From Myxococcus stipitatus DSM 14675 (lineage in GTDB: Bacteria; Myxococcota; Myxococcia; Myxococcales; Myxococcaceae), in contig NC_020126.1 of assembly GCF_000331735.1 (NCBI RefSeq), positions 5,846,501-5,910,500 of the forward strand: 64,000 nucleotides of DNA, read 5' to 3'. The notes beneath the pieces were generated by a model that was not told the DNA's origin, made no database searches, and worked only from the letters and a program-made list of their open reading frames with translations. Position numbers and translations under genes: made by a program. Numbering within the stretch: position 1 is the first letter of the stretch; every line of letters begins with the position of its first letter. Below, piece by piece: positions 1,396 to 6,729 of this stretch.

Positions 1396-1941
1396 ATGTC
1401 GCTCGCGCTATTCCGCTGGAGTGTCGTCCTGTTGCTGTGCCTGTTCACCTCGGCCGCCGTCGCGGGGGAGGTGCGCACGCGGAAGAACAAGGCGAAGGCC
1501 CCCAGGCTCGTGAGCCTCCCGGGAGGGCACCAGCTCCACCGAGACACCGCGACGGCGTACCAGCGCATGGCCCAGGATGCGGCGAAGCACGGCATCGTGT
1601 TGACAGTCACGAGCGGCTACCGCTCCCCGCATGAGCAGCGGTGGCTCTACGAGCAGTACCGGCAAGGCAGCGGCAACAAGGCGGCGCGGCCCGGCCAGTC
1701 GAAACACCAGCTGGGCATCGCGGTGGACCTCATCGTGGGCAAGCGCACGTCGAAGCGCTACCGATGGCTCAAGGCCAATGCCTGTCGCTTCGGCTTCCGC
1801 CGCACGGTGCGCTCGGAGCCGTGGCATTGGGAGTACCACCCTCGGAGCACCTTCCCTCCCGTGGCCGGCTTCGACTGCCTGGGCCGCAAGACGCGCCCGC
1901 CCGAGCCCCCCACGCCCGTGGCCACCCAGGACCCGAGCTGA
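1396..1941 (+). CDS. secreted M15-family D-alanyl-D-alanine carboxypeptidase (VanY-like)
   Basis: 181 residues with a hydrophobic signal peptide (about residues 5-23, ending AAVAGE). The mature part carries the M15 zinc-peptidase signatures: TSGYRSPHEQ, SKHQLGIAVD (S-x-H-x-x-G-x-A-x-D, zinc ligands His and Asp) and EPWHWEY (catalytic Glu and third ligand His). Expected role is trimming D-Ala-D-Ala or related bonds in peptidoglycan in the periplasm. The C-terminus ends in a Pro/Thr-rich tail of about 20 residues. It stands alone, without vanRS/HAX genes, so an immunity or wall-remodelling function is more likely than vancomycin resistance. Confidence 0.8.
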   Translation: MSLALFRWSVVLLLCLFTSAAVAGEVRTRKNKAKAPRLVSLPGGHQLHRDTATAYQRMAQDAAKHGIVLTVTSGYRSPHEQRWLYEQYRQGSGNKAARPGQSKHQLGIAVDLIVGKRTSKRYRWLKANACRFGFRRTVRSEPWHWEYHPRSTFPPVAGFDCLGRKTRPPEPPTPVATQDPS

Positions 1942-2056
1942 GTCACCCACGCCCCATGCGGGCGCTCACGACGTCACAAAGACGTCACGCGCTCAGGCTA
2001 TCGTCGCCTTCCGCGCCCCGTTCATGGGTGGGGAAACTCTCGTGGAGGTCGGCGCG

Positions 2057-2986
2057 ATGAATCCATTGGATTGGTCAGGTCCGCAGTTCCTCAGGGTGTA
2101 CGTCGCGATGTTCGTGGTGGCCGTGGTCACGGGCATCGCGCTTCGCCGCCTGCTGCGGGGCCCCGGCGGACGGACGGGACGCGAGCACCAGGCGCTCGAC
2201 CCGTACGACGTCGCGCTGTTGTCGGGTCCGAAGGAAGTCGTCCACACCGCCCTCGCCCGGCTCCTGCACGAGGGCGTGATTCGCATGGACGGCACGAACA
2301 TCGAGCTCACCGGAAAGCGTCCCACCCTCCGCTCGCCCGTCGAGCGCGCCACCTACGGCGCGGTCTCGGGTCAGTCCCTGCGCCTCGCGGAGCTGCATGC
2401 CCGAGCAGAGCCCGCCATCGAGCAGCTCAAGGAGCCGCTCATCCAACAGGGCTTGCTGGTCGACGCCCCTCGGGCACGACTCGCCCGGTGGCTGCCTCCG
2501 CTCCTCGGCGTCGTGCTGCTGGTGGTGGGGCTGGCCAAGATCCTCGTGGGCCTGTCGCGCGACAAGCCCGTGGGCATCCTGTTCCTGTTCAGCATCTTCA
2601 GCTTCATCGCCGTCTACCTGTTCTCCCGGAAGACCTGGCGCACCCGCCTGGGTGATGAGGTCCTGTGGGTCCTGCGGACGGAGCAACAGGCCCTGCGACT
2701 CACCGCGCGCAGCGCGAAGTCTCCCGAGGTGATGAACAGCCACGACCTGGCGCTCGCGGTGGCCCTCTTCGGTCTCGGGGTGGTCCCCCTGACCGACTTC
2801 GAGCTGTTGCGCCGGCAGATCGCCCCCGAGGTCTCCAGCGGAGGAGACTCCAGCTCCAGCAGCGGCGGCTGTGGTGGAGGGAGCAGCGGCTGCGCGGGCG
2901 GCAGCAGCGACAGCGGCGGGAGCTGCAGCAGCAGTAGCAGCTGTGGGAGCAGCGGCTGCGGCGGTTGTGGCGGAGGTGGTGATTGA
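2057..2986 (+). CDS. TIGR04222-type membrane protein with Cys/Gly/Ser-only C-terminal tail
   Basis: 309 residues from the ATG at 2057 (GGAGGTC ribosome site). One membrane segment lies near residues 10-30, then a soluble region with the TIGR04222-like motif DPYDVALLSGPKEVV and a second repeat (LRLAELHARAEPAIEQL), then two membrane segments around residues 150-200. The last 50 residues (260-309) consist almost entirely of Ser, Gly and Cys, with six cysteines at about 272, 279, 290, 296, 301 and 304. I recall the family as typically ending in such low-complexity tails. The gene overlaps the downstream DUF692 gene by four bases and forms a three-gene unit with it. My inference is that the tail is the substrate of that enzyme; this is not shown by the sequence itself. 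Confidence 0.75.
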   Translation: MNPLDWSGPQFLRVYVAMFVVAVVTGIALRRLLRGPGGRTGREHQALDPYDVALLSGPKEVVHTALARLLHEGVIRMDGTNIELTGKRPTLRSPVERATYGAVSGQSLRLAELHARAEPAIEQLKEPLIQQGLLVDAPRARLARWLPPLLGVVLLVVGLAKILVGLSRDKPVGILFLFSIFSFIAVYLFSRKTWRTRLGDEVLWVLRTEQQALRLTARSAKSPEVMNSHDLALAVALFGLGVVPLTDFELLRRQIAPEVSSGGDSSSSSGGCGGGSSGCAGGSSDSGGSCSSSSSCGSSGCGGCGGGGD

Positions 2987-3828
2987 GCGGGGTCTCGCTC
3001 CAGGGCGTGGGCATCGGCTGGCGACGGGAGCTGGCGCTGTTCATCGACCGGATGCCTTCCCCCGGCTTCGTGGAGGTCCTCGCCGAGCACCTTCCTCCCA
3101 CGGGCCCCATCCCCGTGCCGCTGGTGCAGCTTCGCAAGCGCGGTGTCCCCCTGGTGTTGCATTCCGTCTCCCTGGGCCTCGGCGCCGCGGAGCCGCTGTC
3201 CTCCGAGCGGCTGTCCTGGCTCGCGCGACTGGCGGAGCGGCTGGGCGCGGTCTGCATCAGCGAGCACCTGGCCTTTGTCCGCGCGGGAGGCATTGAGGCT
3301 GGCCATCTGCTGCCAATCCCTCGCACCACGGATGCGCTGGAGGTGTTGGCGGAGAATGTATCGCGAGCCCAAGCCGCGCTGCCCGTCCCGCTCGCGCTGG
3401 AGAACGTGGCCTCGCTGTTCGAGTGGCCCGACGCGGCCTTCACCGAAGCGGAGTTCCTGCGCGAGGTGCTCGCGCGAACCAGCGCCTCCCTGCTGCTCGA
3501 TGTCGCGAACCTCCACGCCCACGCGCTCAACCACGGCACGGACGCGGACGCGGTCCTGGCATCGGTGCCTCGTGAGCGACTGGCCTATGTGCATGTGGCC
3601 GGTGGCGTCCAACACGGCGGCCTGTATCACGACACCCACGCGCACCCCGTGCCCACGGGGCCGCTGTCCCTGCTGGAGCGATTGGCGCGGAGGCTCGGCC
3701 CGGTGCCGGTGATGCTCGAACGGGATGACCGCTTCCCCTCCGAGACGGAGCTGTCCGCGGAGCTCGCGGAGATGTCCCTCGCGATGAAGCGCGGTGTCAC
3801 ACGCGAGCGCGCGGAGGCTCACGGATGA
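2983..3828 (+). CDS. DUF692 / MNIO-family iron-dependent peptide-modifying enzyme
   Basis: 281 residues, a full-length DUF692 TIM barrel. Members (MbnB, TglH, ChrH, BufB) use two or three non-heme irons to oxidise cysteine residues of peptides into heterocycles or related groups. The metal-ligand motifs are all recognisable: LVLHSVSLGLG, CISEHLAF, LALENVASLF, LLLDVANLHAHALNHG, VHVAGG, DTHAHPVP and MLERDD. The start is a TTG whose last two bases overlap the upstream TGA stop (TTGA), implying translational coupling to the Cys-tail protein. It overlaps the next gene by ATGA. A sugar isomerase (same fold) is the alternative, but the motif set fits MNIO. Confidence 0.85.
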   Translation: MSGVSLQGVGIGWRRELALFIDRMPSPGFVEVLAEHLPPTGPIPVPLVQLRKRGVPLVLHSVSLGLGAAEPLSSERLSWLARLAERLGAVCISEHLAFVRAGGIEAGHLLPIPRTTDALEVLAENVSRAQAALPVPLALENVASLFEWPDAAFTEAEFLREVLARTSASLLLDVANLHAHALNHGTDADAVLASVPRERLAYVHVAGGVQHGGLYHDTHAHPVPTGPLSLLERLARRLGPVPVMLERDDRFPSETELSAELAEMSLAMKRGVTRERAEAHG

Positions 3829-4295
3829 GCGCGCGTGAGCGGCTGGCCCAGGCCCAGGGGGAGCTGGTGCGAGCGCTCGGCGTGGGAGGCCCCGTTCCCG
3901 CGGGCTTCGATACAGCGCGCGTCCAGGCCGCCGCCCAAGCCTTGATTCACAAGCGACGCCGAGCCGTGGAGAACACCTGGCCCCAGCTCGCCTCGGCCCT
4001 GGGCCCTGACTTCGCGCGCCACTTCGATTCCTGGGCCCGCGCCCATCCCATGTCCGTGGAGCCAGACCCACGCGCCGAGGGGCGACGCTTCGCTGAAACA
4101 CTCCGAGGACCCGGTCTCCTCCCCGCATCGGTTTCCGGGGTCCTGCTCGACTTCGATGCACGGTGGAACTGGATAGCTACAGGAGAAGCGGTGCGGCGCC
4201 GCGGATTCGCGCTCGTCATCCGGCGAGACACCTTCACCCGGCGATGGCAAGTGGCCCTGAGGCTCCCCGGCGGGCGAGTGATGCGGTGGGTCTGA
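3825..4295 (+). CDS. small DUF2063-like partner protein of the MNIO enzyme
   Basis: 156 residues, overlapping the MNIO gene by ATGA. The first about 75 residues are helical and carry the pattern RVQAAAQALIHKRRRAVENT followed by a W-P-x-L-A-x-x-L-G-x-x-F-x-x-x-F element and WARAHP. This resembles the N-terminal helical domain of DUF2063 proteins, which dock peptide substrates onto MNIO enzymes in other systems. The C-terminal half is predicted mixed strand/helix and not recognised. Assignment as partner rests on position plus this weak pattern. It has no signal peptide or membrane segment, so it should act in the cytoplasm with the enzyme. Confidence 0.55.
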   Translation: MSARERLAQAQGELVRALGVGGPVPAGFDTARVQAAAQALIHKRRRAVENTWPQLASALGPDFARHFDSWARAHPMSVEPDPRAEGRRFAETLRGPGLLPASVSGVLLDFDARWNWIATGEAVRRRGFALVIRRDTFTRRWQVALRLPGGRVMRWV

Positions 4296-4374
4296 CCGCA
4301 CATCTCCGATGAGGGCATGATTCCAGGTCCCATCTCGATTACCGTTATCGCTTCTCTTCGAGCCGAGGGGGCGC

Positions 4375-6729
4375 ATGCTCGTCGTGCCATCCATCCTGGA
4401 TGCGGTCACCGTTCACGCGGAGGGGGCGCTGTGTACACGCGTCGCCACCCTGCAACTGGTGGAGGGCCGCGTTCCAACCGAAGTCCAGCTCAACGGTCTT
4501 CCCCTGTCACTGCGTGCCGGAACACTCCGAGCCAGCGTGAGACAAGGACCACCCGGTCTCACCGTCCGCGCCATCCGCCCGACCTACGACGTCCAGCTTC
4601 CACCTGAAGTCGACGTGCCCAGCGAGCATCAAGCGCTGGAGGCGGCCCGCGCGCGGGTCTCGGATGTGACAACGCGGCTGGCGGGACTGCAGCGCGAGCT
4701 CCAAGCCATTGGCGCGCTCAAGCCCACGTTCGCTCCGAAGAACAAGGACCACTACCAGCCGCACGAGGCACCGCTGGCCGCGATGCTGTCGCTGACGTCC
4801 TTCGTGGACGCGGAGCTGGCCGCCTTGCACTCGCGACGTCTGGGGTTGGAGCGAGACCTGCGCGACGCGGAGGCCGACGTACAACTGCGGCGACAGCGCT
4901 TGCACGAAGCCTCCAGTGCCGTGCGCGGTGAGCGAGCCCGCGTGTATCGCGCCGCCGTGCTCACGTTGTCCGGCACCCCCTGGCCTCGCGAGACACCCGC
5001 GCTCATCGCCCTGGAGTACGCCGTACCGGGCGCGCGCTGGGTCCCCACGTATGACCTGCACCTGCCCAAGACGCTGGAAGAAGGAACGATGCGCATGCGC
5101 GCGTCCATCATCCAGCGCACGGGCGAGGACTGGTCCGGCGTGAAGCTGGCCGTGTCCACCGCCGCGCTGGACCGAAGGGCCGAGGTCCCCGAGCTCAAGG
5201 CCCTGCGCATCGGACGTCGGCAACCCGCACCGCCTCGCTCCGGTTGGCGCGAGCCGCCTCCGGGACTGGATGAGCTCTTCGCGGGCTACGACTCCTTCCG
5301 TCCCGCGCCCGCGTCCGCATTCAAGAACCAGCCCCTCAACGGCCCCGGCGCCGCTCCGTACCAGGCCGCCATCGGCGGCGTGCTCCCGCAGGAAGGCGCG
5401 GCGGCCCCGGACATGACGGCTCAGCTCGAGGAGGCCACTTCCGGCGGCGCGCCTCAGGCGAAGAAGAAGTCACGGCCTCATCGGGACGTCGACATGGCGG
5501 GGGCCCCGGCACCCGCGATGGCCGCGCCCGGAGGACCCGCCTCCGCGTCTGCCTCCCGGTCCGCGCCACGTCCCCCGTCGGCGCCCATGGCCTCGAAGCC
5601 CTCGCAGAACCTGGCCCGCATGGAGCCAGAGGACATGCCCGCACGCAGCCGCGCGCGCGGCTTCCGAGGAGGAGCCCCCTCCCCGAAGCAGTACGAGGGC
5701 ATGGACGACGATGACATGGCCAAGGAGAGCCTGTCCCTCGACGAGCCCATGATGGCGGACCTCGCCCCGGAGCCCGAGTCGGAGGATGGCTTCGGGGGCT
5801 CGGCCGAGAAGCCGGGCGCCACGTCGCGTCTGGACCCCGCCGACCAGTGGCTGGACTACGAGCGGCTGTCCCTGGGCCCCGCGGATGGCGAGTCCTCCGC
5901 GCGCGGCCGGCTCCACCCTCGCCCCAGTCACGTCACGCGCGAGGTGATGGCCCTGTCGGCCATCCAGGTCCAGGTCAACGTCGTCTCCTTCGTGGCCGTG
6001 TGTGAGCGGGAGGTGGCCAGCCTCTGGCGTGTCCCCGCCCCCGCTTGGACCGTTCCCCCGCGCGAGTCGGCGATGCACTTCGATGCGCGGTTCGACGTGG
6101 AGACCCGCGCGGACGTGCCCTCCGATGGGACGTGGCACACGCTGCCTGTCCTCTCCGTCCCCGTGGGATTGTCGCCCGAGTACGTCTGCGTGCCCTCCGT
6201 GGAGCCCCGCGCGTTCCGCACGGTGCGCGTGGAGAACCGGACGCCCTACCCGCTCCTCGCGGGCCCGGTGGATGTCACGCTCGGCGACGAGTTCCTGATG
6301 ACGTCACCGCTGCCCACCATGCCTCCAGGCTCGACGCAGCGCCTGGGCTTGGGCGTCGAGGAGTCCATCAAGGTCGCGCGCAACACGCGCTTCGACGAAG
6401 CCTCCGGCGGCATCTTCGGCGGCGCGACGATGCTCACGCACCAGGTCTCGGTGGAGCTGGCCAACCGGCTCACCAATCGAATCCTCATCGAGGTGTGCGA
6501 GCGCGTGCCCGCGGTGCCCTCGAACTTCGAGAAGGACATCAAGGTGGAGGAGACGGAGGTGGCGCCGCATTGGCAGAAACGCACGCCCTTGCCAGGGGAA
6601 GTCCCCGTGGAGGGAGAGCGCGCGTGGCGCGTGGTGCTCCAGCCCGGTGAAGCCCAGACGCTCAAGGCCACATGGACCGTGAAGATTCCCGCCAGCAAGA
6701 TGCTGGGCGGCGGAAACAGGAGGACCTGA
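4375..6729 (+). CDS. DUF4139 / MuiA-like protein with long low-complexity insert
   Basis: 784 residues. The N-terminal about 100 residues form the beta-rich DUF4140-type domain (VTVHAEGALCTRVATLQL opening), followed by a coiled coil (residues about 80-190) and the DUF4139 domain, which begins LEYAVPGARWVPTYDLHL and resumes near residue 530 (VNVVSFVAVCEREVASLW onwards). Between them lies a roughly 230-residue Pro/Ala/Met/acidic insert that is unusual for the family. Relatives (mucoidy inhibitor A) are of unclear biochemical function. There is no signal peptide. The stop overlaps the start of the next DUF4139 gene (TGATG), so the two are coupled. It begins 79 bases after the MNIO unit, after a GAGGGG ribosome site, and may or may not share its transcript. 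Confidence 0.75.
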   Translation: MLVVPSILDAVTVHAEGALCTRVATLQLVEGRVPTEVQLNGLPLSLRAGTLRASVRQGPPGLTVRAIRPTYDVQLPPEVDVPSEHQALEAARARVSDVTTRLAGLQRELQAIGALKPTFAPKNKDHYQPHEAPLAAMLSLTSFVDAELAALHSRRLGLERDLRDAEADVQLRRQRLHEASSAVRGERARVYRAAVLTLSGTPWPRETPALIALEYAVPGARWVPTYDLHLPKTLEEGTMRMRASIIQRTGEDWSGVKLAVSTAALDRRAEVPELKALRIGRRQPAPPRSGWREPPPGLDELFAGYDSFRPAPASAFKNQPLNGPGAAPYQAAIGGVLPQEGAAAPDMTAQLEEATSGGAPQAKKKSRPHRDVDMAGAPAPAMAAPGGPASASASRSAPRPPSAPMASKPSQNLARMEPEDMPARSRARGFRGGAPSPKQYEGMDDDDMAKESLSLDEPMMADLAPEPESEDGFGGSAEKPGATSRLDPADQWLDYERLSLGPADGESSARGRLHPRPSHVTREVMALSAIQVQVNVVSFVAVCEREVASLWRVPAPAWTVPPRESAMHFDARFDVETRADVPSDGTWHTLPVLSVPVGLSPEYVCVPSVEPRAFRTVRVENRTPYPLLAGPVDVTLGDEFLMTSPLPTMPPGSTQRLGLGVEESIKVARNTRFDEASGGIFGGATMLTHQVSVELANRLTNRILIEVCERVPAVPSNFEKDIKVEETEVAPHWQKRTPLPGEVPVEGERAWRVVLQPGEAQTLKATWTVKIPASKMLGGGNRRT

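Follow-up and report, generated by a model that had tools for sequence, protein, structure and literature searches.

A candidate cysteine-modification unit built around a TIGR04222 membrane protein and an MNIO enzyme in Myxococcus stipitatus

To our knowledge, the characterised substrates of MNIO enzymes are nearly all short peptides. What might such an enzyme modify when its gene overlaps that of a membrane protein with a cysteine-bearing tail? This question is raised by a three-gene operon of Myxococcus stipitatus DSM 14675. It lies in the window analysed here, a stretch of 64,000 nucleotides (NC_020126.1, positions 5,846,501 to 5,910,500) whose own numbering is used throughout. On the plus strand, the operon encodes a TIGR04222 membrane protein of 309 residues (A, 2057..2986), an MNIO enzyme of 281 residues (B, 2983..3828) and a PME-type 2 MNIO partner of 156 residues (C, 3825..4295). 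We consider the tail of A to be the probable substrate of B. With less assurance, we favour a reading in which A, B and C make up one self-contained unit, the membrane-anchored and cytosol-facing tail being modified on its cysteines by B with the help of C. With only three genes, the operon is a compact test case from a myxobacterium of the soil.

The three open reading frames (ORFs) lie where an earlier note on this DNA, made from the sequence alone, had placed them. A and B share positions 2983-2986, B and C share 3825-3828, and each overlap is four bases long. A and C start with ATG (2057 and 3825) and B with TTG (2983); the codon preceding this TTG is an in-frame stop, so no earlier start of B is possible. 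A GGAGG that resembles a ribosome-binding site (2972..2976, plus strand) is found 6 bases upstream of the B start, within Gly codons of the tail of A. A promoter and terminator scan of positions 1900-4500 found none.

B is an intact member of the DUF692/MNIO family, as the earlier note had read it. It matches PF05114 at 257.2 bits (cut-off 25), and all nine iron ligands are present (H60, H95, E140, D173, N176, H204, D217, H219 and E246), seven being transferred from TglH via an alignment and H60 and H95 by eye. The count of ligand conservation took in all of these except D173 and N176, which were mapped only, and found the other seven conserved in 151-152 of 152 homologues. The closest curated MNIO model is that of the bufferin maturase BufB, at 197.5 bits, which is under its cut-off of 310.

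The proposed substrate is the tail of A (residues 256-309; 2822..2983, plus strand), a near-pure Ser/Gly stretch with six cysteines, as noted earlier: the 54 residues hold 20 Ser, 20 Gly, 6 Cys and 3 Asp, and end in CGGCGGGGD. Outside the tail, A has no cysteine. A tail of this sort is shared by 161 homologues and is therefore not a chance frame. As these were picked for alignment through the tail, they tell of its make-up and not of its frequency: on average 4.39 Cys are found in the last 60 residues and 0.69 in the remainder of the protein, 689 of 707 tail cysteines directly follow Gly or Ser, a spacing of 6 is commonest, and the last Cys lies two residues from the end in 114 of the 161. In an alignment of 99 sequences (A2) the last Cys (C304), G302, G303, G305 and G306 are invariant or nearly so. 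Both Cys and Arg codons are one base from GGC and AGC, and yet the tails hold 703 Cys and just 4 Arg (701 and 35 in a fixed window of the last 40 residues). In addition, the tails of 22 DUF2207 relatives contain no Cys in 648 residues. Because Cys so far outnumber Arg, and the tails of these relatives lack Cys, the tail cysteines are, as far as such sequence comparisons tell, selected.

The partner, C, is recognised by its predicted fold. The sequence itself has no Pfam or NCBIfam match at E 1. The AlphaFold2 (AF2) model of C is confident (pLDDT 94.0, pTM 0.84), and in a ranking of VIA-align rows, with 1000 chains re-aligned, the best rows are 8hi7_A (Z 7.7 over 144 residues), 8hci_A (7.4), 3dee (6.7) and 7dz9_C (5.7), followed by a row at 3.2; all of these scores fall below 8, where Z may reflect merely a shared arrangement. 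The first two are TglHI chains of 268-269 residues, which we read as TglI because of their length, the DUF692 chain having 304 residues. 7dz9_C is chain C of MbnABC, and 3dee is NGO1945, matched over 115 residues at a root-mean-square deviation of 3.8. The TglI and MbnABC chains are MNIO partners, and NGO1945 is the type structure for DUF2063. The link in sequence to DUF2063 is weaker than that in fold, and points in the same direction: 9 of 73 relatives of C match DUF2063 (best 5.5e-7), and a profile comparison between C and a DUF2063 set gave a 65.1% match (E 6e-5), against 0.1% and 1.4% for two mismatched controls. The DUF2063-like N-terminus that the earlier note proposed therefore holds through the fold and the relatives, and not through a Pfam match on the window protein. 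From the model, C is a PME-type 2 partner, with an NGO1945-like structure and no Pfam DUF2063 signature, and not one of PME-type 1. An alignment of C, searched against the sequences of solved structures, returned weak FlgJ matches alone (E 0.16-0.19), which we took as noise.

How far does this agree with published systems? According to Antoine et al. 2025 (PMC12452194), in the sections drawn on here, TIGR04222 proteins with C-terminal Ser/Gly/Cys regions adjoin MNIO genes, and subsets of them are proposed as substrates. The claim of the earlier note that a membrane-protein tail as MNIO substrate would depart from known systems is consequently outdated. The set in the window is a further member of the TIGR04222-MNIO-PME-type 2 kind, and its interpretation is largely published: it shares with those clusters the three families, their roles, a Ser/Gly tail with Cys and the lack of a DUF2063 gene. 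In the same sections, the share of TIGR04222 clusters with a PME-type 2 partner is put at 10% or more and many are said to have no partner, whereas C is found at all of the 80 loci nearest to B, a subset chosen by similarity to B. Those sections also report that 490 of 1372 TIGR04222 genomes are without MNIO genes. A TIGR04222 peptide appears in a predicted bacteriocin cluster in the consulted part of a 2016 Pseudonocardia paper (PMC5183585), and no other paper with this term was among the matches listed in our literature search.

Among characterised systems, bufferins (BufA/BufB/BufC) are alike in having an MNIO nearest BufB, Cys targets and a partner with a DUF2063-type fold. They differ in that B scores below the cut-off of the BufB model and A spans the membrane with three helices, while the bufferin precursors carry Sec signal peptides and their partners are of the DUF2063 (PME-type 1) kind (PMC12452194, as far as consulted). 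TglHI and MbnBC also pair an MNIO with a partner; the ligands of B are those of TglH and the fold of C is nearest to their chains. These systems act on short carrier or precursor peptides, unlike the membrane protein A. Proteins of the DUF2207 type (PF09972/PF20990) share with A a homologous C-terminal region and Gly/Ser tails. They differ from it in a large extracytoplasmic N-terminal domain and in the Cys-less tails counted above.

Co-inheritance of the three genes supports a functional unit, as read from genome sequences. A scan with B yielded 151 relatives, and the best 80 of the 151 define the loci L005-L084, on which the profiles of A, B and C were all trained; they come from Myxococcus relatives, planctomycetes, one Dormibacterota genome and many Actinomycetota. 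C lies within 1.5 kb downstream of B in all 80, and A within 3 kb upstream of B in 75, the other five having no upstream DNA. In each of these 75 loci at least one A has at least two Cys in its last 50 residues, and 28 of the 80 loci hold two to four copies of A. The genome searches scored a limited number of first-look candidates, so that misses are possible in the following counts. Among 144 Myxococcota genomes, a B-type MNIO (at least 50% identity; the next best match has 41%) is found in 24, and A over the cut-off in 26, these 24 included; C is found in all 24, plus one weak match in a further genome (G086). Within the genus of the window, 15 of 27 genomes have all three genes and 12 have none. 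In 200 genomes of an actinobacterial order, TIGR04222 is present in 70 and MNIO in 64, with 61 having both, 9 TIGR04222 alone and 3 MNIO alone (Fisher test on 61/9/3/127, p 1.4e-37, relatedness being ignored). C is present in 57 of the 58 loci of this sample where A adjoins B. The Planctomycetota have TIGR04222 in 12 of 294 genomes, with B beside A in seven (G146 and six others); the A of one of the 12, G616, is partial and has no Cys tail.

Some loci vary on this layout. B and C are fused in one frame in four genomes, G250, G269, G299 and G318. Of the fusion loci, L333 to L336, a TIGR04222 neighbour without tail Cys is seen at L333, L334 and L335, and a TAP-like peptidase gene follows at L333 and L336. 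In one of the three genomes with MNIO alone (G409, L339:5890-7573), the MNIO gene is directly followed by an ORF of 164 residues with a Cys/Ser/Gly tail, which has no TIGR04222 match at the threshold used.

If the tail is the substrate, its cysteines might be expected to follow the enzyme, and the earlier note had proposed a test of this covariation. In the raw counts they do. Over 69 of the 70 TIGR04222 genomes of the order (G144 was left out), at least two tail Cys are found in 73 of 82 A proteins beside B, in 7 of 24 with an MNIO elsewhere in the genome and in 1 of 9 from genomes without MNIO; the nine A beside B with fewer than two each share a locus with another A that has at least two. 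After correction for the tree the association was not significant. Several observations weigh against the unit that we favour, or against parts of it. A tree of 260 heads gave just 7-9 supported independent contrasts, of which 2.7 and 2.4 went the same way and 0.4 and 0.5 the opposite way (median p 0.5); this is not significant, with too few contrasts. G127 and G137, both from another genus, hold A with B and A with C apart from each other. In G269, G299 and G318 the A that adjoins the B-C fusion lacks tail Cys. Cys tails also occur in four planctomycete genomes (G740, G622, G777 and G541, the contig of the last being only 3.8 kb) where neither B nor C nor radical SAM gave a match in the stretch read, the search for MNIO having been confined to that stretch. 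Four of six planctomycete loci with B beside A (L383, L385, L386 and L387) have no C match. Finally, Foldseek alone returned no match for the C model at E<=0.001.

Some of these same observations favour another explanation, namely that the tail cysteines stay free, for direct metal binding or redox sensing, and that B and C modify another protein or another part of A. The Cys-less A beside fusions in three genomes and the planctomycete Cys tails without a neighbouring enzyme fit it, as does a genome without MNIO (G518) whose A has a two-Cys tail. We nevertheless think it unlikely. A Cys-tailed A accompanies B in 75 of 75 loci with upstream DNA, 8 of the 9 TIGR04222 proteins that the order sample holds in genomes without MNIO have one tail Cys at most, and no other Cys-bearing gene is common to the loci among the top 40 neighbour clusters.

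On which side of the membrane does the tail lie? The earlier description of A as a three-helix TIGR04222 protein is borne out: it scores 143.7 bits (cut-off 43), and hydropathy and charge over the 161 homologues, together with the AF2 model (pLDDT 84.2; tail disordered in the model), predict three membrane helices on the plus strand, at residues 8-33 (2078..2155; also a helix at 8-33 in the model), 137-167 (2465..2557) and 173-189 (2573..2623). Positive charge follows helix 1 and does not precede it. The mean numbers of Lys plus Arg in the homologues are 0.04 ahead of helix 1 and 2.49 following it, 2.70 ahead of helix 2, 1.04 in the stretch joining helices 2 and 3, and 4.08 after helix 3, where a basic stretch is predicted to be cytosolic. 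This distribution favours an N-terminus outside and a tail inside in all 161 tailed homologues. The head is a winged-helix-like domain, predicted to be cytosolic and related to DUF2207_C; the profile match of A to the DUF2207 C-terminal region is 97.0% (E 1.1e-10, the template being typed by Pfam). From this predicted topology the tail probably faces the cytosol, contrary to published inference.

The published alternative also weighs against our reading. In the consulted sections of Antoine et al. (PMC12452194) a periplasmic tail is inferred for TIGR04222 proteins, from the predicted topology of two modelled proteins. The tail would then be modified by B in the cytosol, translocated late and put to bufferin-like work outside; bufferins do act outside the cytosol, and A has a fourth hydrophobic stretch (residues 225-251). 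This stretch is an 11-residue helix in the model, however, and the family mean has no 19-residue window above 1.2 beyond residue 195. Together with the charge distribution and the DUF2207_C relationship of the head, this leaves a periplasmic tail with a small share of the probability. A cytosolic tail, for its part, would not need to be modified before export.

The reading we favour, of A, B and C as one unit, can be set out as a sequence of steps. A would insert with its N-terminus outside, so that the winged-helix-like domain and, behind it, the Ser/Gly/Cys tail remain cytosolic. C would bind A, through a leader or the tail, and present the tail to B, whose iron centre would oxidise each modified cysteine along with the Gly or Ser just before it. 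For the product we tentatively suggest heterocycles of the thiooxazole type, such as bufferin 1 carries, a suggestion rather less likely to be right than wrong. In the loci compared the set has no conserved protease or exporter, so the modified tail would stay anchored in the membrane, at its inner face. This tail might bind copper or another soft metal, a possibility to which we give slightly less than an even chance. If the tail is the substrate, MNIO chemistry reaches proteins that undergo neither export nor cleavage, and whether metal is buffered inside or outside depends on the side of the membrane.

The modified tail could also be the sensing end of a membrane-bound regulator, its modification or metal state being relayed to the cytosolic head. 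The predicted location of the head and its winged-helix-like elements suit this explanation, and so does the lack of fixed effector genes, the neighbours being different in Myxococcus relatives and Actinomycetota. Against this, a fold search with A gave generic helical matches, to ferritins and helical bundles, and rows for GOLPH3 (Z 7.9 over 151 residues and 7.1 over 145) that are too middling for use. We regard a regulator as improbable, much as we do the two preceding alternatives. The first of the GOLPH3 alignments is that of the head model, residues 42-257. Least plausible by a wide margin is that the tail cysteines merely arose as a GGC/AGC repeat drifted, the trio being linked for other reasons. 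The codons of the tail, mostly AGC and GGC and one base from TGC, would allow this; the scarcity of the equally near Arg (CGC) and a nearly invariant last Cys speak against it.

Homologous tails found routinely in genomes without any MNIO gene would, according to the earlier note, refute its proposal, and this came true in part, in G518 and in one Myxococcota genome, G068. Of the 26 Myxococcota genomes with A over the cut-off, only G068 and G051 lack a B-type MNIO. G068 has no MNIO anywhere in its genome; G051 has one that is unrelated, and its A is interrupted by TAG. In both, a radical SAM/SPASM gene lies beside the Gly/Cys-tailed A (L337:10623-13645 in G068; L169:4193-6282 in G051, where its frame begins directly after the tail gene), and the two enzymes are 50% identical. 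For G068, an enzyme swap therefore fits better than an unmodified tail. The ACGX and SbtM maturase models are the best or second-best matches for both enzymes, far under their cut-offs. Radical SAM/SPASM maturases of Cys-rich peptides are unrelated to B, and there is none in the window.

A profile of the two enzymes matched only these loci and those of G026 and G030 in overlapping locus sets of 84, 69, 108, 11 and 17. In G030 (L397:3381-7714), G026 (L398:3519-7856) and G123 (L399:2934-7207) a protein with a Cys-repeat tail adjoins a radical SAM/SPASM gene, and no MNIO was found in the genome. These proteins of 927-956 residues start like a signal peptide, contain membrane helices and end in repeats of ACHS/CHSA, (CHSA)n, with 11-12 Cys in the last 60 residues. 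Scanned whole against NCBIfam, those of G030 and G123 matched no family at E 0.001, and the kinship of the three to TIGR04222 therefore rests on weak matches (27.7, 25.6 and 22.2 bits). They belong to a group of six Myxococcota genomes with under-cut-off TIGR04222 matches only (G026, G030, G123, G133, G124 and G028), and the match in G133 has no Cys tail. A DegT-type aminotransferase is encoded downstream of the radical SAM locus in G030.

Taken together, the five Myxococcota genomes with such tails beside radical SAM/SPASM genes suggest, by gene neighbourhood, that enzymes may have been swapped on them. It is conceivable, at somewhat under even odds, that cytosolic-face Cys tails of TIGR04222/DUF2207-type membrane proteins are a general platform, taken over by an MNIO and its partner or by a radical SAM/SPASM enzyme according to lineage. 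If true, this would define a class of membrane-anchored, cytosol-facing modified proteins, and if the radical SAM loci are confirmed, the substrate question becomes testable from two unrelated enzymes. We found no report that joins radical SAM enzymes with TIGR04222, in a search that covered literature other than subscription papers and preprint servers; in the sections of Antoine et al. (PMC12452194) drawn on here, radical SAM is mentioned solely in the reference list.

A fourth conserved gene of the operon was sought among the neighbours and rejected. In the Actinomycetota, the neighbours form msrB-like, hemQ-like, hemY-like and hemE-like clusters, present in 32, 22, 22 and 16 of 81 loci and assigned through Pfam at one locus, whereas the Myxococcus relatives have VanY (6 loci) and MuiA (7 loci). 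Because the two sets differ, we ascribe these neighbours to local synteny and do not count them with the system. Many Actinomycetota loci, L015 for one, have the three genes flanked by an msrB-like gene on one side and by hemQ-, hemY- and hemE-like genes on the other. Of the ideas first formed on this locus, the operon, the enzyme, the partner and the tail stand. The departure from known systems does not, and the covariation, seen in the raw counts, was not significant after correction for the tree.

In the window itself, the operon is followed by two adjoining MuiA-family (DUF4139/DUF4140) genes (4375-6729 and 6672-8291), which recur beside it in close relatives, and then, on the minus strand, by an ORF of 804 residues (8345-10759) that, by eye, resembles a pair of solute-binding domains with a lytic transglycosylase domain after them. 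Elsewhere in the genome there are two further MNIO genes (G000 C1:7044589-7045694 and C1:4805531-4806262), one of them beside a DUF2063 gene and the other within a frame of 717 codons.

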